Below are positions 8,970-61,810 of a stretch of DNA of 64,000 nucleotides, one piece after another (within the stretch, counting starts at the first letter, position 1; the number at the start of each line of letters is the position of its first letter). Origin of the DNA: Ampullaceana balthica (lineage: Eukaryota; Mollusca; Gastropoda; Lymnaeidae). The notes under the pieces are model-generated. The model had not been told where the DNA came from, did no database searches, and saw only the letters and a list, made by a program, of their open reading frames with translations. Position numbers and translations under genes: made by a program. The stretch spans positions 88,501 through 152,500 of the forward strand of contig CALYLW010000211.1 of assembly GCA_944989445.1 (NCBI GenBank), given 5' to 3'.

Positions 8970-9431
8970 GTAAGTTTCCATTGTCAAAAAAATTACATTA
9001 ATTTCTTTGTATTATTTATTTGTAATCAGGATTACATTTATTTTTGTATTATTTAAATAATCCTTAGTATTTTATGTTAATTTATCACTGCCTATATAAC
9101 ACTTAGCAAGTATTTAGAATTTACTTATATAAGACCCCACCTCCAATTATTTCTTCTTCTATCTGCTCTAGAGCTTAAGCAAAATTTGCCACATCCCAAG
9201 TTATGGCATAAGGAAAAGCTTACACAGGTTTAATTAAAAAAATGAAATTGGGAGACTTAATTATTATTCAATATACATAATTCCTGTCTTTTGTATGTGT
9301 GGATGTAACGAATATGACGTCATATAATATTTTTAGGTTATGTTAGGTGGCGCTGCGTTCGATTTTGTATAAAAATATTAAATGACGTCATTGTTTTGGC
9401 TAATCCTTTTATAAATAAACCACTAGATAAA

Positions 9432-10378: not shown

Positions 10379-10786
10379 ATACTGGAGAATATTCGAAACT
10401 GACAGGAATAACACCATTAGTTAAATCATTAAACCTTGAAACACTAGAGGATAGAAGAACCAAAAACAAAGTAGTAATCATACATAAAGCAATTAATTCT
10501 AATTTAGAAATACAACACAAAGATAACTTAATACAACCCTCAGATAGACATAAGGATAAAAACACCTTTCTTATTCCGTATGCAAGAACAAACACATACA
10601 AGTTTTCCTTCTTCCCGTCCGGAATTCGGGCGTGGAATGGGTTGCCTGAAGAATCCAGGAAAACCAACACTTAATCAACATTTAAATCTCTAATAAAAAT
10701 GCAGGACTAAACACAAACCATAGATAAGCGTAGGACGCAATAATCTTCTGTATAGAAGGAGCGTCTGTAAACAGATAAGATAAGAT
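10379..10786 (+). mobile_element. 5'-truncated LINE copy nested inside the LINE
   Basis: The segment starts in the C-terminal coding part (it matches 12356 onwards) and runs to the GATAA-repeat tail at 10775-10786. Removing it rejoins the host LINE coding frame without gain or loss of frame (…SNI before, KINKCWFNSRLKK after), so it is an insertion, not a deletion of the RT. Its own frame carries at least one stop. Confidence 0.85.
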
Positions 10787-12703
10787 AAATAAAATTAACA
10801 AATGCTGGTTCAATTCTAGATTGAAAAAGCTATGCAAACAAAAAGACAACATATTTAAGAAATATAAAGCTACCTATTCATATAGGATACACAAAAAATA
10901 CTTAAAGATTAAACACTTGACACAAAAACTTAGTCGAAACCTCCAAAATGAATATATAAACAATGTAATTACCAAAGATAGTAATAAAAACTTATGGTCC
11001 TTTATCAAATCTAAAAAAATGGAACCTTCAGGAATAGCCACACTAAAAGGCTCAAATAATAAAACCTATAATGATAATGAAACTAAAGCTAATATCCTTA
11101 ACACATATTTTGCATCATCTTTTTCTGCCTCAGGCGACAAGGAAGTCTTAATAAATTTAAATAAAATGGAGGAAATAGGTAACATAACTGTAGATGAGAT
11201 AGGTATACATTCACTCCTAAAAAAACTTTAAAATCTACTGGCCCAGATGATTTGCCTGCAAGGTTATTAAAAGAACTAAGCAATGAACTGTCCCCAATCC
11301 TTGTAGTTCTCTTTCAAGCCTCTCTAAACCAGGGTAAAGTGCCCCAGGATTGGAATTAGCTAACGTAAACTCCACTCTTTAAGAAAGGGGATAAATCAGA
11401 CCCATGGTAATTACAGGCCTGTATCACTTACTAGTATCACCTGTAAATTACTAGAACACATAATATATAGTAGAATAGTTAACCACCTTGACAAATATAA
11501 TGCCCTATGCCCACATCAACACGGCTTTAGAAAAAACAGATCATGTGAAACACAATTAATAGGTTTAATAGATGAACTATCAAAAGGCTTAGACAAAAAT
11601 GATCAAATAGATACAATATTACTAGACTTCTCAAAAGCATTTGACAAAGTTCACCACCTTAGTTTACTTAAAAAACTTAACTACTTTGGAATCTCAGGTT
11701 CCTTACATCACTGGATCCAAGACTTCCTTTTGGGCAGGGAGCAAACTGTAATAATTAATGGATCTAAATCTGCACCAATAAAGGTTAATTCAGGAGTTCC
11801 ACAAGGAACTGTGCTAGGTCCCTTACTCTTTTTAATATGTATAAATGATTTACCCAACAACATCTCAACAGGAACAAAATTTAGGTTATTTGCTGATGAT
11901 TGTATAATCTATAGAACAATTAAATCAGAACAAGATAGCAAAATTTTACAAAAAGACCTAGATGAATTGATAACATGGGAAACTAACTGGAGTATGAGTT
12001 TCCACCCAGAAAAGTGTCAACTGTTAAGAGTAACAAAGAAAAAGAAACAAATAAATTCAAAATATTTCATTCATGGAAAGGAATTAACCCAAACTAAAGA
12101 TGCAAAATACTTAGGAGTCATAATAATGAGAAATTATCATGGAATCCCCATGTCAATGAAGTTATTAAAAAATCAAACAAAACCTTAGGCTTTATAAAAA
12201 GAAACCTTTACAAATGTAATAAAGATATAAAACTAAAATGCTATCTCACTTTGGTGAGACCTGTACTAGAATATGCATCTTCTGTATGGGACCCATCCAC
12301 CAAAGAAAACATTGATAAACTAGAACAAATCCAAAAAAGAGCTGCCAGATTCATTACTGGAGAATACTCAAAACTGACTAGAATAACACCATTAGTTAAA
12401 TCATTAAACCTTGAAACACTAGAGGATAGAAGGACCAAGAGCAAAGTAGTAATCATACATAAAGCAATTAACTCTAATTTAGAAATACAACACAAAGATA
12501 ACTTAATACAACCCTCAGATAGACATAAGGATAAAAACACATTTCTTATTCCGTATGCGAGAACAAACTCATACAAATTTTCGTTCTTCCCGTCCGGAAT
12601 TCGGGCGTGGAATGGGTTGCCTGAAGAAACCAGGAAAGCCAACACTTTATCAACATTTGAAAACTCTAATAAGAATGCAGGACTAAACACAAACCATAGA
12701 TAA
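10787..12703 (+). pseudogene. LINE reverse transcriptase, broken
   Basis: This region begins INKCWFNSRLKKLCKQ and runs through the RT palm to a C-terminal block WNGLPEETRKANTLST. Catalytic FADD is intact. Breaks: the frame shifts near 11230, a stop and a shift lie between 11350 and 11420, and one base is missing near 12128 relative to the inverted copy at 16674. With these breaks it cannot make a whole RT. Confidence 0.85.
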
Positions 12704-15640: not shown

Positions 15641-16877
15641 ACTTTTGTTTTTGGATCCTGACTTATCATGCCATATATAATTATAAGAGCAAACTCTAGG
15701 ACATATTTGGTTTAAAGAAAAATATCCTTATATTATTCCTTGAATTCTATCTATACCTCTTCTACAAAACTCCTCTATAGTGGATGTTAGTATTGTTAGT
15801 GCTTCACTCCTTTTTTGAAAAATGTCTTAGATGCTTAAAAATTTTAAAAAAGTGAATTATCATTGTGTAATTCAGTGGTTACATAGTGAGATGTAGAACA
15901 ACCAAATTAATGGCGATGGGTTTAACTTGCGGGAGATCTGCAATTTAAATAAATGTGTTTGTTTCTTGTACATATAGGTTAAATACTGTTTCATGTACAT
16001 ATACTATCATAAAGGTTAAATACAAAACACAGGTTCCTGCTTTATTTATCTTATCTTATCTGTTTCAGACGCTCCTTCTATACAGAAGATTATTGCATCC
16101 TACGCTTATCTATGGTTTGTGTTTAGTCCTGCATTCTTATTAGAGTTTTCAATGTTGATAAAGTGTTGGCTTTCCTGGTTTCTTCAGGCAACCCATTCCA
16201 CGCCCGAATTCCGGACGGGAAGAACGAAAATTTGTATGAGTTTGTTCTCGCATACGGAATAAGAAATGTGTTTTTATCCTTATGTCTATCTGAGGGTTGT
16301 ATTAAGTTATCTTTGTGTTGTATTTCTAAATTAGAGTTAATTGCTTTATGTATGATTACTACTTTGCTCTTGGTCCTTCTATCCTCTAGTGTTTCAAGGT
16401 TTAATGATTTAACTAATGGTGTTATTCTAGTCAGTTTTGAGTATTCTCCAGTAATGAATCTGGCAGCTCTTTTTTGGATTTGTTCTAGTTTATCAATGTT
16501 TCCTTTGGTGGATGGGTCCCATACAGAAGATGCATATTCTAGTACAGGTCTCACCAAAGTGAGATAGCATTTTAGTTTTATATCTTTATTACATTTGTAA
16601 AGGTTTCTTTTTATAAAGCCTAAGGTTTTGTTTGATTTTTTAATAACTTCATTGACATGGGGATTCCATGATAATTTCTCAATTATTATGACTCCTAAGT
16701 ATTTTGCATCTTTAGTTTGGGTTAATTCCTTTCCATGAATGAAATATTTTGAATTTATTTGTTTCTTTTTCTTTGTTACTCTTAACAGTTGACACTTTTC
16801 TGGGTGGAAACTCATACTCCAGTTAGTTTCCCATTTTATCAATTCATCTAGGTCTTTTTGTAAAATTTTGCTATCTT
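15641..16877 (-). repeat. Right arm of the 1237-bp inverted repeat
   Basis: It is the reverse complement of 11932-13168. Its inner edge abuts a second short LINE tail (15611-15640, agaaggagcgtctgaaacagataagat on the minus strand). Seen on the minus strand it is therefore a 5'-truncated LINE, its GATAA tail, about 393 bp of the other locus's flank, then another LINE tail. That arrangement fits a 3' transduction or template switch better than simple inversion. Confidence 0.85.
16123..16842 (-). pseudogene. LINE RT C-terminal part, open frame
   Basis: About 240 codons run from just after the RT palm (WETNWSMSFHPEKCQLLRV) to WNGLPEETRKANTLSTLKT. Unlike the + strand twin, this copy keeps the base that is missing near 12128, so its frame is continuous here. 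It is 5'-truncated at 16877 and lacks the endonuclease and the catalytic FADD, so it is non-functional. Confidence 0.8.
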
Positions 16878-16884
16878 TGGTCCA

Positions 16885-17390
16885 AGTTATTTTCTGCTTT
16901 ATATTGTAGTCTTATCTATTGGTCAAACACGGAGTACATGCAGGGAATGGAGGAGCAGTTCTCCCGTGTGCTTAAGCATGAATGATATGATATTGTTATT
17001 TCTATGTCTATTACTGTTACCCTATTTTTCTGCCTGTAGCCTATACTCTTAACTGTTGCTGTTTGTTTTTTAAAATTCATTCTCTCTGAGCTAATCAGTT
17101 AAGGATCATCCTTTTGGTTATATTTTCCAAAATGCTTGTGCAGAAATTTTCCCCTTAATTTAGGAGAAAAGAATCCTTTTTCTTTAAACTTTTAAATATA
17201 TAACTTTCTTGCAATTTTTAACTATTACCTGAACTTGGATTTATTTTGCTAACAAATCTTCACAACAGTTGCAAAACCTTCTTTACTGAAACAAGCTTTA
17301 TCACTTGGTGTAATGAAAGTTTTGTTATGTTTCAAATCTCAAAAACTAAAGAAATAGTTGTTGAATAACAGAGGGCTACCCCAATAGGAG
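16885..17390. other. GNPTG-like intron segment, nothing recognised
   Basis: This AT-rich stretch lies between two LINE fragments. No open frame of note, no splice-bordered exon and no clear repeat were seen. Confidence 0.4.
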
Positions 17391-17391
17391 G

Positions 17392-19020
17392 TCTAATGAC
17401 TAACAAAATTACAGTGTTGTTGAGCCTTCTCGTCCATGAGGGGCATCCACCGATCATCGTTGGCGTCTGCGATTCCTCTAAGGTCATAGGCCACCTACGA
17501 GAGACCTCCAGGCATCTCTATCCTGGGCCAGCTTCTCCAGGATCTTCCATTCATGGCCAATTCTCTTGATGTCTGCCTCCAATTCTCGGCGCTAAGTGTT
17601 TCTTGGACGGCCTCTTTTCCTCTTACCCTGTGGGTTCCATTTCAGGGCTTGCCTTGTTGTATTAGAAGCAGGTTTTCTTAGTGTATGACCAATCCACCTC
17701 CACTGCTTCTGGAGAATTTCTTCCTCAATGGGCTTCTGTTTTGTCCGCTGCCACAGTTCCCGGTTGCTGATTTTGTCCGGCCAGTGAATTCCGAGAATCC
17801 TTCTTAGACAATTGTTGATGAAGGACTGGATTCTGGTCAGGTTTACGGCCGTTGTTCTCCATGTCTCGGCTCCATATAGCAGCACAAGTTTCACCATAGC
17901 GTTAAAAATCCTTACTTTTAACTTGCTGCCTAAGTTGTTGGAGACCCAAACATTCTTGAGTTGCTGGAAGGCTGCTCTTGCTTTTCCGATCCTTATTTTG
18001 ACGTCAGCATCTGTACCACCTTGTTTATCTACCACGCTGCCAAGGTAAAGAAAACTTTCCACCTTCCCAAGGGCTTCTCCTTCAAGCATAATGGGTGATG
18101 TACTGGTGGCAGTGGCATTAACCTTGAGGATTTTACTCTTCCCTTTGTGTATGTTGAGACCATGCTAGCAGAAGTGGCTGCGACAATGTTTGTTTTCTCC
18201 TGCATCTGTTTTGGGTATGTGCAAGAAGGGCAAGATCATCAACAAAGTCAAGATCATCAAGTTGATCCCACAAGGTCCATTGGATGCCATTCCTTTTCTG
18301 CTGTGTAGATGTTTTCATCACCCAGTCAATGGCTAACAGGAACAGGAATGGTGACAGCAAGCAACCTTGTCTCACACCAGAGTTCACCTGGAAAGCATCT
18401 GTCACCTGCTGACCATGGACAACTCGGCAGTTTATCCCTTCATACATGTGTCTGATTATATCCGTAATCTTCTGTGGCACCCCGTAATGCCTTAGCAATC
18501 TCCACAGGGTTTGCCTGTCAACACTGTCAAATGCTTTTTCATAGTCAACAAAGTTGACATAGAGCGGCGAGTTCCACTCTAGTGACCACTCTAGAATGAT
18601 GCGCAGTGTCGCTATCTGATCAGTGCAGGATCTGTTGGTGCGAAAGCCAGCTTGTTGGTCCCGCAGCAGAGGGTCTACAGCGTTTTTCTTCCTGTTAAGT
18701 GGTACACGGCTGAAAACCTTTCCTGGGATCGACAGCAGAGTGATCCCTCTGTAGTTCGAGCAGGAGCTTAAATCCCCCTCTTTTAGGATCTTGAAAAGGC
18801 ATTTCTCTTTCTAATCGGAAGGAACTTGCTCCTCTTCCCATATCTTCATAAACAGAGGGTGTAGCATTTCCACACTGGTTTCCAAGTCTGCCTTCAGTGC
18901 CTCTGCTGGGATGCCATCAGGTCCTGCAGCCTTTCCATTTCTGAGCTGTTTAATTGCCCTGCTAATCTCTTCTTTGGTGGGAATATTGCAGTCAATTAGC
19001 AGGTCATTATCGGCTGTAAT
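17392..19020 (-). mobile_element. Second LINE family (RTE/BovB-like), 5'-truncated
   Basis: The minus strand carries an RT from about 19020 to the C terminus near 17392. Blocks in order: RNGKAAGPDGIPAEALKADL, NYRGITLLSIPGKVFSRV, QAGFRTNRSCTDQI, VDYEKAFDSVDRQTLWRLL, SGVRQGCLLSPFLFLLAIDW and LDFVDDLALLA. The FxDD box reads FVDD. The C-terminal region holds [24 protein letters not shown] and [10 protein letters not shown], and ends ADANDDRWMPLMDEKAQQH. It has no EN domain here and a different tail from the first family. Confidence 0.88.
17592..18498 (-). pseudogene. RT of the RTE/BovB-like LINE, broken
   Basis: Two open stretches (18133-18498 with the RT palm, 17592-18089 with the C-terminal thumb and GRPRNT end) belong to one protein and are separated by a frame break near 18090-18170. 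Upstream coding to 19020 has a further in-frame stop near 18810. FVDD replaces the usual FADD, but the two aspartates remain. Confidence 0.8.
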
Positions 19021-33962: not shown

Positions 33963-34771
33963 TTAGAAGGGAAAAGTGGCCTTGGCTTGATTAAATTTTT
34001 GTAAATTTGCAAGAGCATTTCGTTTAGAATCTTCAGTGGATCGGGCATAAGGTCTGGTTAAATTGTCTTTCCGTAGTGTTACACCAAAACCAGGTCTGTC
34101 TGGGAGATCAATGTATCCATCTTTAGGTAATGGCTCGTCTGGAAATAAGCCCCCAAAGTAAGGAACAATTTCATCGGCTTTGTTACTTAAATTGATGTAT
34201 TCTGCTAAAGGGCAGTTGTTGAAAGCATATTGGAGATGGTAGGAAAAAACACTTGAACCGTGGGGAATGACCAAAGTGTCAGTGGCAGATGCCATTGCCA
34301 CCACTCGCCTAGCCTCTGTCATTCCACCCAGCCAAGTAATATCTGGTTGTATTATGTCCACACAGCGTGATTCTAGTAATTTCTGAAACCCATATCTGGT
34401 GTATTCGTGTTCTCCTGTTGCTAGTAGTATGCTGGATGTTCTCAGGTTTTCACGGACTTGACAGTAGCCATCATAACAATCTGGCATAAGATACTCCTCA
34501 ATCCACTTTATTCCATAGGGTTCCAGACATCTTGCAAGTTTGGTCGCGTAAGGAACTGTGAGCGCCATGTAACAATCCAAACTTAACGGAAAGTCTGGTC
34601 CCACTTTCTCTCTCCAGGATTTAAAAAACTCCACATTTTCCCGCAAACCATCGTCACCAGCGCTTGGACCATAACAACAAGGTATTTTTGCTCCTACAAA
34701 ACCAAGTTTCTGAGCTAAATCGGGCCGGGCAGTGGTTGAGTAGACGGGCAGGCGGTCCTTGGTTTTACCAC
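33963..34771 (-). CDS. Dehydratase exon C: catalytic barrel and C terminus
   Basis: The acceptor is tttcctggcag and the exon starts GT, completing Gly split from exon B. It reads GGKTKDRLPVYSTTARPDLA, KLGFVGAKIPCCYGPS, then LSLDCYMALTVPYATKLARC, KWIEEYLMPDCYDGY, LATGEHEYTRYGF, DIIQPDITWLGGM, VIPHGSSVFSYH, and ends with the family's PDRPGFGVTL block and stop. All expected metal and acid/base residues are present. There are no internal stops over 268 codons, so it looks functional. Confidence 0.95.
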
Positions 34772-34833
34772 CTGCCAGGAAAAAAAAACAATGACAGAAT
34801 TAGGCGGCGATTTCAAATGAATTTCCAAGCCTG

Positions 34834-35100
34834 TGTAACAGGCCAGATTAAACCCCCGACCAGAATATACCCGGGTATAAACTGGCCTAGGCCAGAATAT
34901 ACCCGGGTATAATCTGACCTAGGCCAGAATATACTCCGGGGGTTAAACTGTCCTAGGCCAAATTATACCCCTCCAGGCCAGAATATACCCCTTGACAACA
35001 TGAGGATATATAGTAAAAAATGATTGAATGACTATATAGACATTCTATTAGAGTTTTAGCTATGTCAGAGAAGTCAAACTCATTTCTTAGGTATGAAAGA
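34834..35100. repeat. Left terminal inverted repeat of the long-TIR element
   Basis: It pairs with about 40570-40803. Sub-terminal words ggccagaatatacccgggt and cctaggcc recur three to four times, typical of transposase-binding arrays. The same terminus is at 55735-55935, inverted. Confidence 0.85.
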
Positions 35101-37199
35101 TGTTTTAATAACAATAAAATAACAATAATAAAATAATTTCTTTTATTACCATGCAGTGGCGTCTCTAGGGGAGGCGGGGGGGGGGCGGGCCGCCCCGGGT
35201 GACACCCATCAGGGGGTGACACCCGAGCCTAAAATTTTACTGTGTACGATTTTATGTCAGAAAACTAAAGATGACAATTTTTTTAATCTAGAAAGAAATA
35301 CAATGAAATACGTTAAACGCGAAAATTCTTATTAAAAAAATATCAGTTAACTTGCAATAATAAAACAGTCCCAACACACGAAAAACATTAAAACAAATTA
35401 GGAAAAAAAGAAAAGAAATAGTCGCAGCAGAGAGATCTTTAAAAACGGCTGGAATGAAAGAGGCAGTGTCTTCTGTTTTAAAAGATATAAAGCCATTTGG
35501 GCTTGGACACACTGACAGCATGATCCCCCCCCCCACCCCCCTTGAAAAAAAAATATCAAAAGATGGGTTTTCTTTGTTGATGTTTATCTTGAGGAAAATT
35601 GTGATTTCAATGTCTTTGAGTTAATATTTTTATATATATATATATTTATTAAAGGCGTGAAAGCATAGATATGCATGTTTATATACAGGTAGTCCTCCGG
35701 TTACGACGGTCCCATCCCGACTTACGCTGTTTAGTGCTTACGAACGCGCACCCGTAAAGAATAGTATTACGCGTTATTCCGTATTTTTAAAAAAGAATGT
35801 TCATGAGGTAACAAATTCTTTTCTCATTTTGAAATAACAAAAATTATTGAAAAACATGTATGATTATTATTTCAACCTACAACTTTCGTTTGCGAATTTT
35901 TCAAATGGCGAAGTTTTCAATCAAGTCAATAAAGCTGAATAAGCTTACAAGTTCCTTTTCAATGCTCATTAGAGAGAGCATATTCAGCCTTTTTCGTCCC
36001 ATGCAAATTCTATCTCATTATATATTCTTTTCAACTTTGAAAAGGATTGCTCTCAGCTGCAGTTTGATGTCATCATTGAAAGATAGATGCGAAGTGCGAT
36101 GTGTACATTTGTAAAGGACTGTGTGAAATATAGCTAATTCAAAAGCAGCAAAATATTTAGCTCTGTGCAAGTTTTTTGAGTTTCGCTTAATTCCTTTAAC
36201 CTGAGCCTGGGGCTGGACAATAACTTTTTTAAGAGTTCTGAAAATTGGACTAATTCTGAAGGTAAGCAGTCTTCGAAATCACTCATGAACCTACATGTGG
36301 AAGAAAATCAGAAGCCCCCAGTCTAGTGCTCTTTATGGGTCCTCCTGGAAGACCCCCTTAGCCATCTGGCCACCAAAGGGACGTGACAGCTGAGGAACCC
36401 CCCCCCCAAATTTTTTAAAATAAAATCGGTCGCTTCTGAAGCGGCCACCTGGGCATCCAGGACATACAGTCAAAGATGCCTCCCACTAAGTTGCCCTCAC
36501 AAGGAGGTGGTAGAATGTCCTACTACGACCCGCTACCACTTTGGCGCCATCCCGGCAAATCACACGGGTCTCCATGGTTAGGACCGCCGCAGACCGGGGT
36601 ATCATCAAAGACCTACCTGGGGTGCAACCCTCACTGGAAGGTTTCCTCAGAGCAGGCGTCCAATGCGTTCTTCGCGGCACTTTTTGCTAATCCGTACTGG
36701 CGCTCCTGGCCCTAAATCTGCACCGCTCGATTGCGTTGCTAGTAAATTAAGGGGGACGAAACGGTTGCTTCGGATTTATCCGACCCCTTCTTCGAAATCA
36801 CTTGAATGTTCTTCCATTAACTTGGCTGCTGCCCATCGGGTGGCGAAAGTGCTGAGCTCAGTTAGGTTTGTAAGAAAGCCAAATTTCTCATGGATGTATT
36901 TATATGCACTAAACCAATGTTGTAGGGCTTAAGAAAGTTTGTCAATGATTACCAGAAATACCTCAATCTTGAATTTTTTTCTCCAGAAGAATACTGTTTT
37001 GTTGATGTCTCTTTATAAAACTGACGCTTTCTTTTTTGTTTGATAGTATTGAAGATTGCTTACACTGTTTTTACCACGGACTTTTCCTTTCCTTTGTCTT
37101 CATAGGAATAAAATTAAGAATGCTATTTTTTAACAAACTCACTGAGAGACTTCCTTTCTAAAATTGTTTCCCAAATTTCAAGTAAAATAGCGACTTCCA

Positions 37200-37705
37200 G
37201 TTGTTCAATTTCATTTAGAAATCCTTCTTCTTCAAGTCGGCAGTCACGTGGCTGATTTTCATTCGTTGCAAATTCTTCCAGTGCTGCGATATTCTCATGG
37301 TATGAGCTATTAACAGACCTTACAGCATAATGTCAGGCTGACCATCTTGTGTCAGACAAGGCTTTGTTAGCATAATGTCAAGCTGACCATCTTGTGTCAG
37401 ACAAGGCTTTGTTAGCATGTATCAATTTCATATGTTTTTGAGGTACCTGTCATCGATGAGTAGATGCAACAAGTCGGGTATAAAGAGTTTGCAGAAGACA
37501 AAAAAATCTTACCGCAGTAGGACAACCTGCTGCTCTTTTCCCAACCAAATTAAAGGAATGAGCTGTGCACGGCACAAAATGAGCTACAATGCACTTCTCA
37601 CGAAGAATAGCCTGGTTTCCGTTATACTTCCTACTCATTTGCAGCATTGCCCTATGACTGTCCAAGGCATTTTCAGGGATTCGTACAAACATAATGGCCT
37701 GCATC
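37200..37705 (-). pseudogene. hAT transposase fragment (ZMYM1-like)
   Basis: The minus strand reads PENALDSHRAMLQMSRKYNG, then PCTAHSFNLVGKRAAGCP and FFCLLQTLYTRLVASTHR, the same blocks as at 1143-1620. The line continues with breaks and a 50-bp tandem duplication (catcttgtgtcagacaaggc twice, 37340-37415). Confidence 0.75.
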
Positions 37706-37802
37706 TTTATTATACACTATAATTCATAAAAAGTTTGGGTGCCCTTAAATTATTGGGGGCTTTTAGCCCGTTCAGCTTCCCCCCCCCCTTTTAAATCCAC
37801 CA

Positions 37803-38189
37803 TACGTCCACGCATCTGTGACGATGTGCTACGAGGAGGGGGTGTTTAAGAAATGCGACGTCACATCAAAAACGCGAAACTTTAAATAAAAGTTCCACTT
37901 AAATATTTGATTGTTTACCATTTATTTAATTACGTTTTCAATGACTTCACGCGTGTTACGATATTACAGTGCAGACTTACCCTAAATACATATTTAAATG
38001 ACAAAAAATAATTTGCAACCTGCTAATTTTTATTGAGAAAATACGACTAGGGGGAGGGGTTTCAAAGCTTTGTGACGTCATATCGTAAAAAAAGGGGTGG
38101 GGTCTAAGTTTTTGTGACAAAGTATGACGCTGGGGGAGTGTGGGGTAAAAATCGGCAACCTCGCGTGACGTCATTTATGGACGGCCCCT
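37803..38189. mobile_element. TGACGTCA-type MITE, left end damaged
   Basis: The right end cgtgacgtcatttatggacggcccc is intact and the body matches 59320-59721. The left end is eroded (cgtccacgcatctgtgacg). Confidence 0.65.
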
Positions 38190-39290
38190 TCAGTCCTGAA
38201 GGGGTGACACCATGAGCTACCGCCCCGGGTGACACCAACCCTAGTGACGCCTCTGTTACGATGTCTGATAGGACGGTAACTTTTTATCTAAAAATACAGT
38301 CTACAGGAGTATAGATGGAATCAGCGTTTTTTTTTAAAAAATAAAAGTTGAATAATTCTAACAATACATGAATTGATTTTTTAAAAAGTAATTTAAGCGC
38401 GATAGGGACTATAGTTATAGCTTTTCAAACACTTGCGAAATTTTTTTTTCGTGTACCGCGCGTATTAATCAAATCATTAGGTTTAATTATTTTGAGTATG
38501 ACAATAAAGATTTTTTTTATAAAGTATTGAATTAAATTATGCATGAATTGTTGTTTTTTTCCTTGCACACATTTTAAATGTTACTGGCAACCACGGCTTA
38601 GGGCTATCTTCGTTTTGTTTTTAAAATAAACATATCATGGCGCTTTCCCTTTTTAAAAAAATCTGTCAGAATATACACTGATCTGCAAAATAGTTAAAAG
38701 AATAGGCCGACTTAAGTGTGGGAAACATCGTTTGACTTCACCCCATGTTGCTTGTCGTATTTCCGAACCTTTATCTGTAGCTCGGTTTGCCTTGGCGGCG
38801 TCTTAAGACATTCAAAAGAAACCTTTGTGTCAGTAGCGAAAATTATTGTTACTTTTTAAATCAGTGCAATTCATTTTTAACTGTGTTACCTTAAAAACAG
38901 TACGGTCATCCTTATTGGATTTCGCCAATGTTGGATTGTCCGCTTTCTAAACACTTATCTATTGTTATGTAGCACGGATTGCGTTCCGTTTAATCTGTAT
39001 TCAAAAGAACCTCTGATCTCGTCGCGCCATATTATTTTATTTTAAACCAGCCTAATTTCTTTTGAAAGGCGTAAATATAAATCATGAAACCCTGATGGAT
39101 TGGTCCCTACCTCGTGGTAGAATCATTAAACAATGGAAGAGTGTAGCTAAAGAATATATCGACTGACAAAATACTAAGAAACACCGACAATGTCAGTAAC
39201 GTAAAAGTTTACAGCAATTAACCGGTTTCTTCACCCAATCAGTTCCCTGATGACTCTGTTAAAGGTAATGTCAATGGGAGCATACAACAA

Positions 39291-39485
39291 ATGGATCAAG
39301 AAAGCAGAGGTGAAGAAACAGATATCATCGTGATACAACCTGTCTCAAAACAAATGCAGTTTAGCACTTTTAACCCACTAACAATTTCAAGAAGAAAGCG
39401 TCTTAGCACAACTCTTGGCTTTACTTTTGACAACTTTGTATATTATGGCCGCAATCGAGATCTTGAACAACCAAGGTGTACATAA
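39291..39485 (+). CDS. Short unknown frame in the long-TIR element
   Basis: Sixty-four codons start MDQESRGEETDIIVIQPVSK and contain NPLTISRRKRLSTTLGF. A diverged copy (with MQIRTFQPLKFSRRKRLS and a frame break) is at 52150-52345 in the other long-TIR copy. The coding-like text may be a captured host exon or a transposon gene start. I do not recognise a domain. Confidence 0.4.
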   Translation: MDQESRGEETDIIVIQPVSKQMQFSTFNPLTISRRKRLSTTLGFTFDNFVYYGRNRDLEQPRCT

Positions 39486-39905
39486 CAACTATATGACAAC
39501 CACATAACTACATAACAACTACATAACAACTATATAACAACCACATAACAACTACATAACAACCACATAACAACCACATAACTACATAACCACATAACTA
39601 CATAACAACTACATAACAACCACTTAACAACTACATGACAACTACATAACAACTACATAACAACATGACAACTACATAACAACTACATAACAACCACATA
39701 ACAACTACATAACAACCACATAACAACTACATAACAACCACATAACAACTACATAGCAACCACATAACAACTACATAACAACCACATAACAACTAAATAA
39801 CAACCACATAACAACCACATAACAACTACATAACAACCACATAACAACTACATAACAACTACATAACAACTGCATAACAACTACATAACAACTACATGAC
39901 TACTT
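39480..39905 (+). repeat. Minisatellite ACATAACAACT
   Basis: About 40 tandem copies of an 11-bp unit (acataacaacT/C). The sister element at 52460-52535 has about seven, so the array has expanded in this copy. Confidence 0.92.
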
Positions 39906-39915
39906 GAATAAAAGT

Positions 39916-40265
39916 GGGGAATGGGTTGGCTGAGGAAACCAGGAAAACCAATATCAACATTAAAAACCAACACTATCAACATTTAAAACTAACACTATCA
40001 ACATTTAAAACCAACTCTATCAACATTAAAAAACCAACACTATCAACATTTAAAACTAACACTATCAACATTTAAAACCAGCACTATCAAAATTTAAAAC
40101 TAACACTATCAACATTTAAAACCAGCACTATCAACATTTAAAACTAACACTATCAACATTTAAAACTCTTAAAAAAATTCAAAACTAGATATAAACCAAT
40201 GATAAGCGTAGGACGTAATAATCTTCTGTATAGAAGGAGCGTCTCTAAATGATAAGATAAGATAA
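39916..40265 (+). mobile_element. 5'-truncated LINE tail with internal minisatellite
   Basis: Starts with ggaatgggttggctgaggaaa (the LINE C-terminal WNGLPEET region), then has about a dozen copies of an 18-bp unit actatcaacatttaaaac (39955-40165), then the LINE tail tagaaggagcgtct and GATAA repeats. The unit is an amplified piece of the LINE's own caacactttatcaacattt. A sister is at 52552-52865. Confidence 0.85.
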
Positions 40266-40803
40266 TGGTAAGGAATCCAAAGTGTTAACACTCGTTTGAA
40301 AAGCAACAAATATAACCACTCTTAAATTATTGTTTTAAAATAATCATGTGGTGCTGGATTAAGTTAATGTTAAATGAAAAAAAAAGAAAAACGCTGATTC
40401 GATATATATTTGCATAGACTGTAACGTTTGATCTTGAATCGTCGAAATTATATAAGATTTCATATTTAAAAAACGAGAAAACGACATCATCGTTTTCAAA
40501 TAAAATGTCATGCTCCTTTCATTCATCGTAAAATATTTTGTAATCATTATTTTATTTTAATTAACACAATTTTTCTCATTAAGAAAAGAGTTTAATTTAT
40601 CTGACAGAGCTTAAACATGAAGAGAAAATCTAAATAGTCATTCATCCATTTTTTACTATATGTCCCCATGTTGTCAAAGGGGTATATTCTGGCCTGAGGG
40701 GGTATATTCTGGCTTAGGCCAGTTTAACCCCGGGGTATATTCTGGCCTAGGCCAGATTATACCTGGGTATATTCTGGTCAGCGGTTTAATCTGGCCTGTT
40801 ACA
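40266..40803. repeat. Right arm and terminal repeat of the long-TIR element
   Basis: The outer 230 bp invert the left terminus. The inner 300 bp (atccaaagtgttaacactcg onwards) recur at 52866-53008 and, inverted, at 53009-53405. Confidence 0.8.
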
Positions 40804-41100
40804 CCTGTTCATAAAAGCCGAAGGCTCGACCTTCTAAATAGAATGACACATAAATGAATTGTCATTCAATGCATTTTTCTTGCCAATTCTAACCTTGAAA
40901 ATTAAAATTAAACAAGTTTATTTGAAATTAGGTCATCCTTGTAGTTTCATGCAATGTGGAGAGGGAAGGGTGTTAATTAGACAATTTAAGGTAAAGGATC
41001 GGTATTTGGAAAAAAAAATCGCCGTACATTTATTTATTCTAATTCTATCTTTTATATAAATTATAAATATTTTTTAGAAAAGAAAGAAATATCCAGCCTA

Positions 41101-41290
41101 TTGTCACTTCTTTTTACAATTCTTTTCACACTGTTTGTAAAGAAAGGTTTTCTCTACTGGACTAATTTGATTTCACTGCAGCTAAATTTAAAAAAAATTT
41201 TTTCGTTATATTCGTTTTATTTGTTCATTGAGGAAGGCTCTTTGCCGAAACGTTCGCTGTTTTGTTACATCCTGTCAGGCTAACTCATAC
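41101..41290 (+). mobile_element. Penelope-like element 3' end
   Basis: gaggaaggctctttgccgaa, acgttcgctgttttgttac and gtcaggctaac match, in reverse, 49620-49670 next to the GIY-YIG coding part at 49825-50163. It is a short 3' fragment ending about 70 bp from the donor of dehydratase exon B. Confidence 0.7.
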
Positions 41291-41356
41291 CCTGTTTATA
41301 TGTTATACATTTACGACTTTCAGAAAGACATGTATGAGATTTGTTAGTCTACACAC

Positions 41357-41432
41357 CTAAAAGTAAATAAACTGGTTCATTTCTTAATTTTCCTAAAAGA
41401 TCCCATAGGGCTAGGTCAACTGCGCTGATGGC
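41357..41432 (-). CDS. Dehydratase exon B
   Basis: The 76-bp exon has acceptor ttattgcag and donor gtgtgt. It reads [20 protein letters not shown] then VYLLL plus one base of Gly, the strongly conserved [15 protein letters not shown] block of mandelate-racemase-like enolases. It starts at phase 0 (after exon A) and ends at phase 1 (exon C starts with the other two bases). It survives between a Penelope fragment and a MITE. Confidence 0.95.
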
Positions 41433-42001
41433 CTGCAATAAATAAAATTTAATCAAAATTATTATTTTTTAAATGAAAAGCAAAATACAAGAAAAAACAT
41501 AAATCTAAAAACATACACACATAGAATCCACTTTGGATACACACAAAATGCATGGCTGCAGGAGAAACAAGAGAATGCGAAACATGGAAAATAAGAACTT
41601 TGTTTTAGGGGGCATCCATATATTATGTACTCACAAAAGTCGTATTTTCGTACCCCCTCCCCCCTGTTGCACACCGTACATTTTCGGGACCCCCTCCCCT
41701 GTGCGTACGTACAAATCCCCCCCCCCAGTTTAAAAAATTAATTTTAAGCCCGAGTCAAAAGTTATTGGTTTTACTCTTTGAAGCCGTTCATAAATGACGT
41801 CTAAAAGGTGGGGTGGAGGGGGTCACGCATTTTGCTCGATGTGCGACGAGGGGGAGGGGTGTGTTTTAGAAATAAGACGTCACATCTAAATGTGGTTGTG
41901 ACGCCATATTGGAGGAGGGGTCTAACTTTTTTGTCGAGGGGGTAGGGTGAAAATCGGCCAAAATCGCGTGACGACATTTATGGACGGCCCCAAAGCTTTG
42001 A

Positions 42002-42189
42002 CCACGGCTGGTCTTAGAATTTGCGGGGCCCTATGCCGCTTAGTATGCGAAACGGAATGCGCGTGGCCTAGTTTGGGTAGGGATAAAGATTCAATAAGAA
42101 TAATAAGTGAAAATTAAGATAGGTTGGGCCTATGAAAGCGCGGGGTCAACTGCGACCGCATAGGTTGCAGTGGCCTAAAACTGGCCCTG
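42002..42189. mobile_element. 188-bp hAT MITE
   Basis: Starts CACGGCTGGTCTTAG and ends in reverse CAGGGCCAGTTTTAG. The flanks are gctttgac and tctttgac (7 of 8). Confidence 0.75.
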
Positions 42190-42297
42190 TCTTTGACCCC
42201 CCCCCCAAAAGCCATGTTTTTGTAATTGAAAATTAGCATGTTGCAAATCACTTTTTTGTCATTTAAGTTTAGTTTAAGTATGTATTTAGTGTATTGT

Positions 42298-42418
42298 ATA
42301 TAATATTATATAATTATAATATATATATATTTTATATATTATATTACATAATGATATATTATATCATTATATATAATATATAATATTATATATATTATAA
42401 TATTCTAATATCGTTAAG
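42298..42418. repeat. AT-only palindromic stretch
   Basis: About 120 bp composed almost only of ATAT/TATA words with several self-complementary blocks (for example taatgatatattatatcatta). It could extrude as a cruciform. Confidence 0.7.
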
Positions 42419-43772
42419 CACATGTAAAACTTCATTAAATAAATTGTTAACAATCACATATTTAATTGCAACTCGTATTTAAAGTTACGCGTTTTGATGT
42501 AACGCAACATTTCTTAAACACCCCCTCCCTTTCGCCACATTGCGTCACAAACGGTTGAACCCCTCTCCCATCATTTATGGACGGCCCCTTTGTGACGTCA
42601 TACGGGAGAGGGGTCTATGTTTTTGTAACGAAGTGTGTCGGGGGGGGGGTAAAAATTGGCCAAAATTGCGTGATGTCGATCATGGACGGCCCATTTATAT
42701 TTTTTGTAACATAGTGTTTTTCATTTTGAAATTATTTTAAAAATAATATAGATATTCAAATTGTATTGTCTTGAACACTACATAACAAAACAGATAAAAT
42801 ATAACAATACGAGCAGTGAAATCGAGGTCCCATTGTGTATTTATAAAGGCTAAGGCACCGGTTAGCGAAAGAGAAACTTTTACTAATTTCAAGAAATGGA
42901 AATATAAATCAGACGAATATATTTTTAGTAATGTGGGAACGTTTGGTCTGAATCAAATGTTAATTACTTCCAAGTAATTAAAAGTTCAGAATTTCGTTTG
43001 CAATAAATTATAAAATATTATTGCATATCAGTCTTGACTCAGTCGGTCTCGAATGCCGTTTGCAGCCAGAGCAATTTACGTTACTAGGCTTAGTATTATG
43101 CAAAATAAAATTATTGTGCGTGCGTACACATTCAGTCGAGGACCACCCCCCCCCAGTACGCATCCATACGCAAAATACCGTTAATTTAAGACCCCATCCC
43201 CCTCCTTGCTCACGTAATATATGGATGGCCACTTATTGCACTTATTTTTATACCACAACTCCTGCAGCATACCGAGTGACCAGACATAAGTAAACCAAAG
43301 TACTCATAATTTAAACGCTGACTTTGTTATAAATCAAATTTTGTTTGAAAAGTTATATGATTGAAACTCATTATTAGGGAAAAGCAGGCAATCAATTTTT
43401 CACACCAAGAAATATGACAGGTTTTCATGCTTTGAAATGGGAAGCTCCTTTTTTTTACCACTTGTCAGTGGTTCATTGATGTTTGGATAAAAAACAACTC
43501 AAAAGATAATAACAATTAATGTGTTTATACTATGATTTATAATGTACATAAATATGAAAAAAAAATCATGCTCTCGTTTATGATTTATTCCTCTTTAAAA
43601 TTGCCCTTAAAAAAAACTTAATTTGTCAAAGATCTTACCCAAATTTGCAAGTGAATGTGTTTACGCCTTTAAAAAAATGAATTGGCGTCGGTCAAGAAAT
43701 TTTTAAATTCTATAAAGGATCGTATTTAAAATCACAATCCAATTATTTTAAAAATCACCTCAATACGATGTT

Positions 43773-43982
43773 CAGAGGCGGCGTTAGGTACGCGCGAGAC
43801 CTGGTGCAACAATGACCTCGCGGGCCCTCCCTAGATTAGATCAATTCTTGCGCAAACTCAGTAGTGCAATATCTGCCGGCTTTTTTGTTACTAAAATATA
43901 GTTTCAAGTCTGAAACGCGGGGCCCCCTAAGCGAGAGGCCTGGGGCGATTGCCCCAGCTGCTATCCCCAAAGGCCGCTCCTG
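43773..43982. mobile_element. 210-bp hAT MITE
   Basis: Starts CAGAGGCGGC and ends, in reverse, CAGGAGCGGCC. The flanks acgatgtt and cgaatgtt match at 6 of 8. Confidence 0.65.
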
Positions 43983-44054
43983 CGAATGTTGCTCTAGGAT
44001 GGATAAAGTTCGCAGAGACTAGCTGTTTTTTCGGTGTCTTATCTTCTTATCTTA

Positions 44055-44313
44055 GGGGCCGTCTATAAAGTACGTCACGCTACTTTTGACCATTTTTACC
44101 CCCCCTGACCCCTGTCACGAAATGTCACAAATCTCGGACCCCCTCTCTAAAGTATGTCACACTTTCGTCAAATTGTTTTTTTTGATAACAAAATAATTAA
44201 AATTTAATATAAAACACCGTGACGTCACACATGGCGGACCCCCCGTCACAAACTGTCACACTTTCTTACACCCCCCCCCCGCCTGGAGTGTGACGTACTT
44301 AATGGACGGCCCC
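44055..44313. mobile_element. 259-bp MITE with TTA duplication
   Basis: Ends ggggccgtctataaagtacg and cgtacttaatggacggcccc, with TTA directly outside both (44052-44054, 44314-44316). The inner ends carry cgtcacgc/gtgtgacgt words. Confidence 0.88.
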
Positions 44314-44883
44314 TTATGAGTTAAAAATAAATAAATACATGTTAATTGTTAAAACGTTGTTATGTGACGTCTTGTCAGGCCTACTATACATACCCTGTTT
44401 TAACAAAATATATTTATTTTTCTAAAAGCCTGATTGTTGTCTCACCCATATTTATCTTATCTGTTATATGCTCCTTTTATACAGAAAATTATTTAGTCCT
44501 ACGCAAATCCAGTGGCGTAGCTAGGGTCATGTGCGCCCGGGGACATGACACAAAATCTGCACCCCTTGTCGGGTTTAAAAATTCTGGGGTTTCAGTGAGT
44601 CCCCAAGATAATTTTGAAATTTTACGGTTTATAATTGTGTGGTTCATTTTTGAAGCATCTGGTTTTTAATGAAATAGAATACAGACTAATAGTTCTCTGT
44701 ATTATTATGATTGTAAACAATTTATTACAACAAAAAAACTCTACTAATTATACATGACTCATATAGACATCGTCTACAGCAAATTGATCCTCATTGATTT
44801 GAATGTCGCAAACTCGTCAATCACATTGTCAAAATTAATATTCTCAAGTGTTTCTCTTTCGATGTTGAGGAGTGCAAGATCAC

Positions 44884-46535
44884 TCAGACGGTTTGTCCCA
44901 TTGAAGCACGTAAATAAGACAAAATAAACTTCAGTTTGCTGAAGGACCGCTCACAACTTTCATTTGAAACAGCAATTGTTAGAAGTATTTGAAGTGAACT
45001 GCGCAGATTCGGAAATACGTCATGTCCATATGAAACAATAAAACCAAGAAGATCCAAAGGGGTTTCCAGCAGAACTTCAGTCCGGGTACTGAGCAGCATT
45101 TTTCAGACTCCGATTTGTGTGCACAATTCGTGACCATTTACGTCAGCGCCGTAGAAATTAGCGAAATCTAAGCAAGTTTAACGAAGTGTATCGACTTTTG
45201 TCTCAGCAAGAAGAGTTTTGACGTCTAGTAAAAATCCAAATGTGCTGTTTAGGTTTTTTAGACGTAAAAACCGTATTGATATCTCCTTTTGGAGTCTATA
45301 AATTACGCTGTTCATATCACGTGCAATTTCTTCTTCTGCAGAAAGTCCTGCATCTCTTGTTAATTCTCAAGGCATCCTCCGATGTCGTATAATCCTTCTG
45401 ACAACTTCGATTCCCAAAGTTGTGCATCTTCTTCTCCATTGTCTACCGCAACCTGGCTCAAATTATCACGAATGTTGACAATTTCTTGCTCAAACGATTC
45501 AAGATCAGATGCTGCTTCCTTGAAATTCACAGTAGGTTTCTGCAACCGTTTCTGGACACGATCAATTTCCCAATTATGATGTTCCAGAAATGTAACAAAA
45601 CTAGAAAGTTAAAGTTTAATATACCTACCAGCAAAGCTTCTGCATCACATCTGTTGTCAGGCGTCCTTTTGTATGTTCTGATAATTTTTCCAACAGCCCT
45701 ACCAGTTCATCTATAAGTCCTTAATAAATTGCTTTAAAAGCTTCTGATCGTGCACTCTAACGTGTTTCAGGCTCCCTCTTTATTGTGATTGGCACAAATC
45801 TTTTTAATTCTTCCCAACGAGTTGTTGAACGAGAGAAAACAAAAATTTATACTTTCAACTGTTCCAAAAAAAAATGATAACAACTGGATCCTGTTTATCT
45901 GAATGTACTCCTGCTAAGTTTAAGCTGTGGTTGTCACAGTTGATGAACAATCCTATATGATTTCTGGCACATATTCGCTGTTGAAGGCCAGATATATGCC
46001 CAGTCATTACAGCAACAATGTCATAACATTGTGACCGATAGTCGGATAGAGGTATGTTATTAGATTCCAGTTTGTCTACTATAACTCTTTAAGGCTTGCT
46101 GAGTCTTTGGAATGTATCTGGATAAAACATAAAAATTATTCTTTGATGGTTTCTTATTTAGTTTGAAAATCCACATCCACAAATCTGATGACTCGAGAAA
46201 GCTGTTCCCGTTGTCTAGATCGAGTTTTGAGTCAAGTAAGATACTGTAGTACTTGTTTTTTTTCTGATTTCACTCAACAGCTGATTCCTTACAGTCGATG
46301 TAAGTAGATTGATAAATTCATTTTGGATTACCGGTGAAAAATAATATACAGAACCTGGATTTTCTCGGGCATGTTGTGGGTGTTTTTCTAACAGTGGATC
46401 ATACTGAGCAACAAGTTTGATCACAGAGACAGGAAAGAGAGGCGGTGTCTGATGTTTCATATGAAAGGAATCCAACTTGCTTTGACATACCGACATAATC
46501 CCGTGAGAGGAGAGATCTTTCCTCCCCTCCCCCAC
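44884..46535 (-). pseudogene. hAT transposase, ZMYM1-like, multiply broken
   Basis: Read on the minus strand: VSVIKLVAQYDPLLEKH and VIQNEFINLLTSTVRNQLL (N-terminal part, near 46350), degenerate middle, then QEIVNIRDNLSQVAV and finally TIAVSNESCERSFSKLKFIL, the C-terminal dimerisation signature. Frameshifts and stops separate these pieces. Confidence 0.8.
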
Positions 46536-46630
46536 ATTACTCCCTTCACAGAGGGATTGGGAAGTAAGATTTTTCTTTTTAAAGAGTCAAATCATGCAGC
46601 AAAGGGACGTGAATTAACCATTCTGTAAGC

Positions 46631-47839
46631 CAGTGGTTCTCAACTTTTTGAGATTCAAGGACCACTTGAAAAATGTGTGTCTTAGCTACGGACCAATACT
46701 AAAAATTGTGCTACTGCCGTTCGGGAAATTTAAATATAATTATACTGTGTATATAGATAGCTATAAGTAGTATACATGTTAGTTTGTAAAACTGTACTAA
46801 CATGCTACGATTTGCGTGATCCAGAAACAATATTGTAATGGCTTTGTTTTGTAACGAACAAATGTCATTTATATTAGTCTCATAGTCTTCTTATGTAGTT
46901 CTACTTGCTAAGTATAAAAAAACTTTAAGTCATAAACAGTAGTTTGTATTAAAAAGACTGCTATATTAGTTTATTTAGTACAAACGATGTTTTGTTTTTA
47001 TTGTAAGCAATGCCGAAAATCCACTTGCAACAAGTTGAAAGGGTTAAAAGTATTTTAAAAGCTATATCTGAGACAGTTCGGAGTACTATAAAATTTCATT
47101 AAGCCCACTTTAATTACGATGTTGGTAATTTTATTTCATTAGTCAATGTGAGTGATATTAGGACTGGAAACCCACGAAAAACCACTTAATGTTATAAATC
47201 ACAAAAGTAGAATTAAAGTTGGTCCTGCATTTATTGAATGTAACCAGAAATCAAATTTATCAACAGTTTATTTATTTCAGCATTTTCTGATTTCTCGGTG
47301 GTTTCGTACATCAAACATATCAAAGTTACCTTGAAATATCTTCTTTTCCTAAGATCAAGATTTTCGTAAAAGCAGACACTTTGCCACTGAGAGTAATATA
47401 ATGTGTCTGCTTGCCTTGCCGAGTTGAATTAAGGTTATTGAGTTCAGCCAAAAAAGCCAGAACAGCAAAGCATAAGCTATGGTTCAAATAATCATCAAAC
47501 TTTGAGTTTTTTCTACAAGAAACTCTCTTACGTCATCACTTTATTCAAAAAGTCTGATAACCAGCGAACTTCAATATACATCAGTAACTGTTAATGTTCA
47601 AGATTCATATTCGAACATACGAAATCAAAGAGACGAGAATTTAATGGACGAGCCTTGATACAATTTATAAACTATTTAGGCCAGATCAAAAATATATTTT
47701 AAATCTGCGTTAATTCTTTCACTTGCTAGTCTTTATCGATGAATCATACAGTGCGCACATTTCATGCTGTGCTCGCGGACCGCCAGGCATATCTTCGTGT
47801 ACCACTAGTGGTCCGCGGACCACAGGTTGAGAACCACTG
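46631..47839 (-). mobile_element. 1.2 kb ZBED-like hAT nested in a hAT
   Basis: Ends CAGTGGTTCTCAACTTTTT and, in reverse, CAGTGGTTCTCAACCTGTGG. The flanks ctgtaagc and ctttaagc match at 7 of 8. The minus strand near 47380-47460 reads FLAELNNLNSTRQGK then LSGKVSAFTKI, the N-terminal part of ZBED/SCAND3-type transposases. Confidence 0.88.
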
Positions 47840-48476
47840 CTTTAAGCCACTCCTTTTTCTTGTCTTGGTCATTTTGGTTGCTTTTAGTGTCGTCTCTGTC
47901 GGTTCTATTAATAAAATCACCTTTGTCTCTTACTACTCCCCCACTCTCACTCGCAGCAACTCACAGTTTTTTTTAAAAACGCCAACAGCAATCCTATATT
48001 GTGGATGTGTCATTTATTTATGAGTAGAATGGCGCCCCTTAACGCTCAATGGGGGCGCCAAAATCATACTTGCCAACTGGTTTGTAATGAAGATATTTTC
48101 GGAGCTCCAAAATTCAATCTTGCAAACGTATTTGGGATACATAAGTTTACGTCAAAATAAAATTAAATAATGAGTTTTAATACTTATTTTGGTGCCCCCT
48201 AACGTGGCGCCCGGGACATATGTCCCACCCCTGCCCCCCTCGCTACGCCACTACGCTTATCCATGATAATGTTTAGTCTTACATTTTTATTAGAATAAAT
48301 AAGTGGCGGCACAAGCAGATAACGTATTTCCTTACCGAGGTTTCGAACGAGTAGATTACATGTAGAAATGGAAGCAGGCAAAATAAAAAAAACTTGATGC
48401 TTTAAAAAAATTATCAATTTATTATATGGACAGATATTTTTGCTATTAAAACATATGTAGGCAAAGGCTAACTAAC

Positions 48477-48659
48477 CTGAATGGGAAGACCTTTACGTCC
48501 GTAGTTAATAGTACCCTTAAACATCTGGTCCCACATAAGCTCAACATTTCTTGGGTCTTGACCTTCAACAAACTTGCTGAGATGCTTCTCGACGATATAG
48601 CAACCTGGTTCACCACCAATAGTCACACCTACTCCAACTGTACCGTCATCTGCTTCAAC
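48477..48659 (-). CDS. Dehydratase exon A (most upstream found)
   Basis: The acceptor is tttatttgtag and the donor is gttagt. Sixty-one full codons read VEADDGTVGVGVTIGGEPGC, YIVEKHLSKFVEGQDPRNVE, then MWDQMFKGTINYGRKGLPIQ. This is the N-terminal half-cap and first barrel strand of the family (GxGVTxGGExxxxIVEKHL...YGRKGL). Both borders are phase 0. The preceding part, with the usual HW motif and TSWGIxxLG block, must lie in another exon. Confidence 0.95.
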
Positions 48660-61095: not shown

Positions 61096-61810
61096 TAGGG
61101 CTGTTAACGATTAATGTATATTTAATAGTTAACTTTTGAAAAATTAACGATTAATTAATCGTTAATTTCGATTAAAGCCTAAAATTAAAATTTATGATGT
61201 CATAAGTAACACTTATTAAACGTTCTTGTTGTAAATATAAATAACACTTGAATGTCTCCTTTATATGTCATCTTTTAAGCAACTACGCAAAAAGACAAGT
61301 GTGTTGACCTTATTTGATTCAAGTGATGAGCGGGTCTAATTTACAATATAACAAGCCAAGCAGAACAATCATTCACATGGAACTGAGGTAACTGGTATGC
61401 AAAACAATCTTGGCAAGGAATGACATTATCGGAAATTGGTGTTCATTAAGTTTCCACCATTGTAGAGGGTAAATGGATTCAGGAACTTTCATCTCCAATT
61501 TGTAACGCAGTACTTCATCAGAAGAGCTGTCGTCATTTTCTGTCTCTGAGTCAGACTCCATTATTGCCATTAGCTTAATACGCTTTTCATTTGCTTTGAT
61601 AAGTAGGCGAAGTGTTAGAACCATGGTAGGCAAACTTTATCAACATTTTGAACATTCCCGTCAGTCAATAGTTTAAAACCAAAATGTTCGTGTAATCGTC
61701 AGGAAATGTGTAATTATTTATCGGCCGCTATTTATTTTTTTTTAAATTTTTGATTTCCAATAATTTGTAAGTGATTGGTCGATTAATCGTTAAAAAAAAT
61801 TGACGAATTC
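61096..61810 (-). mobile_element. hAT with ATTAACGATTAATCG ends
   Basis: Left end agggctgttaacgattaatg and inner attaacgattaattaatcgttaa; the right end (gattaatcgttaaaaaaaatt) is truncated. The minus strand at 61373-61633 reads ESIYPLQWWKLNEHQFPIMS, the C-terminal WW block of hAT transposases. A sister is at 62740-63507. Confidence 0.65.

Follow-up and report, generated by a model that had tools for sequence, protein, structure and literature searches.

An L-rhamnonate dehydratase-family gene in the snail Ampullaceana balthica, most likely older than the animals

How a snail comes to carry a gene for an L-rhamnonate dehydratase (RhmD, EC 4.2.1.90), and whether that gene was picked up or passed down, is the question raised by a 64,000-nucleotide stretch of the Ampullaceana balthica assembly GCA_944989445.1 (contig CALYLW010000211.1, here C211, positions 88,501 to 152,500, forward strand). 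This whole stretch is called the window, and coordinates without a contig name are counted from its first letter. A first-pass annotation had described a spliced gene of this kind at 33963..48659 and had proposed an old horizontal transfer with later gain of introns, a protein tree being one means of deciding. Judged from its sequence, the product is an L-rhamnonate dehydratase-family enzyme, whose orthologues databases already name automatically. The gene most likely reached the snail by descent from a time before the animals, not by recent acquisition.

The gene lies on the reverse strand, and its parts follow in coding order.

48477..48659, minus strand: exon A, internal coding exon of 61 codons (VEADDG...GLPIQ), phase 0 at both ends, acceptor TTTGTAG, donor GTTAGT
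41433..48476, minus strand: intron A/B, 7,044 bases, bounded by GT...AG
41357..41432, minus strand: exon B, coding, 76 bases or 25 codons plus one base, phase 0 in and phase 1 out, acceptor TTGCAG, donor GTGTGT
34772..41356, minus strand: intron B/C, 6,585 bases, bounded by GT...AG, rich in repeats shared within the window
33963..34771, minus strand: exon C, last coding exon, acceptor GGCAG, stop TAA at 33965-33963, encoding the C-terminal barrel with Asp152, Glu178, Glu207 and Asp230/His257 and a tail ending in PF

Joined in phases 0 and 1, the three exons give 355 open codons followed by TAA. Four border choices were tried, and only the junctions 48477/41432 and 41357/34771 stay open to the terminal TAA; the other three have stops in every frame. 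The top homologue among the best 120 of 5,761 matches is the L. stagnalis protein P0001, with 95% identity across the whole query (337 of 355 positions), no gaps at the exon junctions and all 61 residues of exon A equal to residues 95-155. In alignment terms this likeness is far above chance, and it marks the source as a lymnaeid or a close relative. The GT/AG borders, phases and junctions first proposed are thus as described, with an open frame and a gapless alignment to L. stagnalis. Searched against the genome that holds the window (1,097,344,711 bases), P0001 gave three matches out of four candidates scored, namely exons A, B and C.

Profile searches place the product in the RhmD family, as the first-pass annotation had it. 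Pfam finds PF02746 (MR_MLE_N) at 41.8 bits against a cut-off of 22 and PF13378 (MR_MLE_C) at 154.1 against 29.4. The NCBIfam RhmD equivalog NF011968 scores 431.9 bits against its cut-off of 393, despite the lack of about 94 residues; the other eight NCBIfam models listed fall below their own cut-offs, the next being galactonate dehydratase (152.6 against 311). Among solved sequences (60 of 149 matches listed), the seven best are all titled (L-)rhamnonate dehydratase; five of them also bear that molecule name, and 2oz3 and 3d46 were deposited under other names. The L. stagnalis orthologue, 449 residues long, was modelled from an 18-row alignment (mean predicted local distance difference test score, pLDDT, 77.4; predicted template modelling score, pTM, 0.81; pLDDT below 50 at residues 1-7, 11-25 and 43-86); the Foldseek matches of this structure model at ranks 1-18 are all titled (L-)rhamnonate dehydratase. 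Seven residues, at sites picked from motifs in the E. coli chain, are identical in nine aligned rows: the window product and eight homologues from a snail, a sponge, a choanoflagellate, a pelagophyte, an Anaerolineae bacterium, Fusarium, Azotobacter and E. coli.

34688-34686, minus strand: K115 (window-product numbering)
34577-34575, minus strand: D152, aligned metal ligand
34499-34497, minus strand: E178, aligned metal ligand
34412-34410, minus strand: E207, aligned metal ligand
34343-34341, minus strand: D230, aligned Asp of the Asp/His pair
34262-34260, minus strand: H257, aligned His of the Asp/His pair
34202-34200, minus strand: E277 (window-product numbering)

The roles of D152, E178 and E207 as metal ligands and of D230 and H257 as an acid-base pair are those generally given for the family. 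The original RhmD paper is that of Rakus in 2008. All metal and catalytic residues had been said to be visible; the metal ligands and the Asp/His pair are, but an N-terminal His/His/Arg set is not, its exon being absent from the window. The two histidines of the N-terminal loop and the arginine, presumably placed near the substrate, are conserved in P0001 (H51, H57, R80) and in seven other compared homologues, so the feature exists in the family and is unread in this genome.

The origin of the gene was approached with a tree of 79 chosen representatives (IQ-TREE, LG+C20+F+G4 with posterior mean site frequencies, PMSF), which takes in 70 of 360 listed proteins, leaves out L005 and L006 and is rooted, by assumption, on five acidobacterial rows. 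Supports are given as bootstrap over Shimodaira-Hasegawa approximate likelihood ratio test (SH-aLRT). The window gene pairs with L. stagnalis (100/99), is followed by Biomphalaria, Candidula and Plakobranchus, and lies inside the gastropods (98/96), which in turn lie inside a mollusc-plus-brachiopod group (89/86) holding two unlabelled rows. Around these stands a clade of 43 eukaryote rows (99/96) with molluscs, a brachiopod, annelids, sponges, choanoflagellates and a pelagophyte. Its sister is a clade of 18 rows (99/97) whose named members are Chloroflexota and Acidobacteria and of which eight are unlabelled; the fungal RhmD (11 rows) join two proteobacterial chains (100/96), the E. coli chain forming a long branch. 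P0119 is a choanoflagellate, Acanthoeca, by its taxonomy identifier, and from the form of their names we take P0041 to be a sponge and P0037, P0061 and P0077 to be choanoflagellates. P0279 and P0281 are called Chloroflexi from their place in a quick tree of 371 rows (including a wrong 131-residue frame of L006), and these labels have no effect on the 79-row tree.

The make-up of the homologue list is of the same kind. Among the best 120 of 5,761 homologues, 31 rows carry a readable organism name, and we take these to be 22 molluscs, 1 brachiopod, 2 annelids, 4 sponges, 1 choanoflagellate and 1 pelagophyte. The 31 names include none of a vertebrate, arthropod, cnidarian, echinoderm or cephalopod; with the rest of the 120 unlabelled, this does not amount to absence from those groups. 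Because the nearest relatives sit in molluscs, a brachiopod, worms, sponges and choanoflagellates, inheritance from before the animals is most likely, and not a recent pickup.

Had this snail lineage, or the molluscs, acquired the gene from bacteria or fungi and gained its introns later, this would fit the fact that the characterised RhmD members named among the matches are bacterial and fungal, and one intron does hold many local repeats. Such a transfer is nevertheless highly improbable: other gastropods and molluscs are the closest relatives, followed by further animals and by choanoflagellates; 17 aligned relatives are 64-83% identical to P0001, compared with 58% for the nearest bacterial protein found by peptide pattern in genome contigs (L001, from an Anaerolineae metagenome-assembled genome, MAG); and fungal RhmD stands on another branch. 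A recent transfer into this snail was accordingly rejected, the gene nesting among gastropods and apart from bacteria and fungi. The transfer first proposed for this animal gives way to a gene nested among gastropods within an old animal-containing clade. In substance the tree places it there, though the free tree shows no single metazoan clade; when 25 metazoan rows were forced together, among them two unlabelled rows (P0018, P0028) added since they are placed among molluscs, the cost was 7.65 log units (p 0.391), which does not reject a monophyletic Metazoa.

An older transfer from bacteria to eukaryotes, before animals, is possible and compatible with this tree. In its fuller form, an early eukaryote, holozoan or older, received RhmD once from a Chloroflexota/Acidobacteria-like bacterium, and vertical descent in animals, with losses, followed. 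This proposal, which extends the preferred explanation of inheritance from before animals, is credited with slightly less than an even chance, and the same standing is given to its second part, in which algae or other protists share RhmD by descent or secondary transfer. The position of the 43-row eukaryote clade as sister to the 18-row bacterial clade and the grouping of fungi with two proteobacterial RhmD speak for it. On the other side, bacteria were sampled thinly, with a bias towards one query and two peptide patterns, 8 of the 18 sister rows are unlabelled, the root is an assumed one, and a clade of the eukaryote rows plus fungi, forced together at a cost of 21.2 (p 0.188), is not rejected, so that one old eukaryotic origin is still possible. 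A pelagophyte RhmD of the animal type was also seen, ending in PF, with 72% identity over 97%; it belongs to the pair P0104/P0089 (100/99), one of which is unlabelled, and may reflect shared descent or a transfer between protists.

The C-terminal tail carries a mark of the eukaryote clade. A Pro-Phe end is found in 103 of 120 relatives of the window query (the best 120 of 5,761 homologues), against 0/120 in a list drawn with a fungal query and 0/120 with a bacterial one. Within the 79-row tree it marks 35 of the 43 eukaryote-clade rows and none of the 36 others; the eight exceptions end in FPV, MPI, MPM, MTF, MRL or, in three cases, MPL. The tail after the GFG motif has a median of 37 residues in the animal-type set (120/121 rows, window included), 16 in the bacterial set (117/120) and 43 in the fungal set (120/120), where its sequence is another one. 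The snail product ends in ATFPF, and the tail is most simply read as a putative shared derived trait of the eukaryote clade.

These results converge on a reading held with good confidence: the window carries the 3' part of a working, apparently single-copy snail RhmD-type gene, passed down vertically since the common ancestor of animals and choanoflagellates at the latest. Several observations weigh against it. The brachiopod Lingula falls within the molluscs (81/81), a departure from the species tree, and a 38-row clade without sponges (99/93) holds choanoflagellates, the pelagophyte, annelids, molluscs and unlabelled rows as a comb. The gene in the window is also not a complete one: it is the 3' part, with three of at least four coding exons, and the 5' exon or exons were not found. 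In P0001, 94 residues precede the counterpart of exon A, and tblastn with P0001 found no exon for these roughly 94 residues in the window, and none in the 54.4 kb readable within the next 59.4 kb of the contig (searched as C211:152401-211900, 59.5 kb with 5,000 N); a whole-genome search gave, elsewhere in the readable genome, a single chance-level match (E 4.29). Directly after the window end lie 5,000 N (C211:152501-157500), an assembly gap or a withheld stretch; since they adjoin the window, the N-terminal exon may lie there.

The same missing exon, sought in the window, in the readable sequence upstream of the gene and in the rest of the genome, is what would be expected of a 5'-truncated, dying or duplicate copy. 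Such a copy is unlikely, as its 355 codons are open, its splice sites are intact and its identity to L. stagnalis is 95%; no other P0001 match exists in the genome, and the neighbouring 5,000 N could hold the exon.

That the gene belongs to the snail and not to a contaminant is supported by its intron repeats and the retrotransposon remains around it, and the first-pass annotation was right to place it in an animal-type genome. It had also called the introns full of the window's transposons. When coverage is counted from repeats that recur inside the window (blastn, E 1e-8, at least 60 bases), the description fits intron 34772-41356 (64.8%) better than intron 41433-48476 (11.2%); exon C has 0%. 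Pfam searches of 20 other open frames of the window gave five that match: an endonuclease, two reverse transcriptases, DUF6451 and a hAT dimerisation domain. Remains of a non-long-terminal-repeat (non-LTR) retrotransposon lie at 9318-12703 (plus strand), with endonuclease (PF14529/PF03372) and reverse transcriptase (PF00078) in separate frames. Such remains, together with window-shared repeats in the introns, point to an animal chromosome and not to contamination. Three further elements were noted on the minus strand: a frame at 16123-16911 that by eye nearly equals the 3' part of this retrotransposon, a reverse transcriptase (PF00078) followed by DUF6451 at 17592-18810, and a weak hAT dimerisation match (PF05699, 24.8 bits against 21.4) at 61376-61636.

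Enzymes of this family take a Mg2+-bound acid sugar and remove its C2 proton and its C3 hydroxyl, the latter as water, to give a 2-keto-3-deoxy acid sugar. In the snail enzyme His257, paired with Asp230, would be the likely acid/base. Since its closest solved relatives are RhmD enzymes, it probably acts on L-rhamnonate or a close aldonate, which could derive from L-rhamnose taken in with algal or plant food. The fungal oxidative L-rhamnose pathway comprises LRA1-LRA4 (LRA1 an L-rhamnose 1-dehydrogenase, LRA2 a lactonase), and in A. nidulans a BlastP search gave no clear LRA4 (PMC7532622). Partners for such a route were sought in the snail genome. The profile PF03328 (HpcH/HpaI) was used for the 2-keto-3-deoxy-L-rhamnonate (L-KDR) aldolase, LRA4 being, as we take it, a member of that family.

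The outcome adds to the points against a working RhmD-type gene of this kind. PF03328 found no match with three candidates scored, and PF17389, for glycoside hydrolase family 78 (GH78) rhamnosidases, found none either; both searches matched exon by exon, and because exons split a profile these negatives are weak and carry no conclusion. Controls match in 10/14 genomes for PF03328 and in 3/14 for PF17389, and the same exon-by-exon method picked up an ENOSF1-like gene, whose matches span 46 and 55 profile positions. No recognisable rhamnose cluster surrounds L001 within about 9 kb. L001 itself passes the RhmD cut-off (514.1 against 393); its neighbours (L001:205-8421) resemble, below cut-offs, a BhcC aldolase, a sugar or inositol dehydrogenase, an amidohydrolase and a GH32 enzyme, and a glutamate-1-semialdehyde aminomutase exceeds one of its own cut-offs. 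With neighbours of such unclear pathway, the substrate of L001 may not be L-rhamnonate. In the fungus Cordyceps javanica a 579-residue protein (P0240) lists PF13561 and PF00106 (short-chain dehydrogenase) beside its RhmD domains; two pathway steps may be fused in it, or the gene model may be an artefact.

More speculatively, RhmD may have come from a Chloroflexota/Acidobacteria-like bacterium into a lineage that preceded the split of animals and choanoflagellates, gained there a C-terminal tail with, in most cases, PF at its end, and been kept in grazing and filter-feeding invertebrates; this scenario is rated less likely than not. If it were true, animals would oxidise L-rhamnose or a similar algal deoxy-sugar by a route not yet characterised, whose first step and whose aldolase or hydrolase await naming. 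Among 35 open-licence PubMed Central (PMC) papers naming "rhamnonate dehydratase", none has an animal RhmD as its topic by title or beginning of the abstract; by title they treat fungi, bacteria, microbial communities and methods, and a single one treats an animal, with zebrafish ENOSF1 as its subject. In place of a supposed recent bacterial transfer stands an old animal enzyme, widely kept and already named automatically in databases.

Comparison with known enzymes bears on one more alternative, that the product is an animal acid-sugar dehydratase of other specificity such as ENOSF1 (L-fuconate dehydratase). Both are animal acid-sugar dehydratases of the enolase superfamily, and human and zebrafish have ENOSF1 (PMC3197473). 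This specificity is improbable for the window product, since neither a fuconate dehydratase nor ENOSF1 appears in the 60 listed of 149 solved sequences or in the nine NCBIfam models, and the genome has a separate gene, which ENOSF1 matches and the window product does not. This second enolase-superfamily gene, ENOSF1/L-fuconate dehydratase-like, lies on short exons of another contig (C135:735199-727340), and it and the window gene are the only PF13378 matches in the genome. An ENOSF1 identity was rejected on these grounds, RhmD chains ranking first among both solved sequences and Foldseek matches.

The best solved relative is the RhmD of Azotobacter vinelandii (PDB 2oz3), with 179 of 328 aligned residues identical (399.5 bits). 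It shares the aligned metal ligands, the Asp/His pair and the Lys, and it is the top fold match of the L. stagnalis model; the animal protein differs in a C-terminal extension ending in PF, absent from the aligned 2oz3, and in that its gene is spliced. The fungal LRA3/lraC type (Gibberella zeae, PDB 3fxg and 2p0i; Foldseek ranks 4 and 7-11) agrees in family and aligned residues, whereas its identity is 163/353 (Fusarium row P0122), its branch is shared with proteobacterial RhmD, and its tail is another one, with 0/120 ending in PF. Closest of all are the proteins annotated as "L-rhamnonate dehydratase(-like)" in molluscs, sponges and Salpingoeca (P0001, P0009, P0067, P0075 and others), which are orthologues. 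Over the window product the four named here reach 70-95% identity; the tail is similar, and the aligned residues are the same where checked (P0001, P0075). The orthologues include the N-terminal part lacking in the window and otherwise show no difference of substance.

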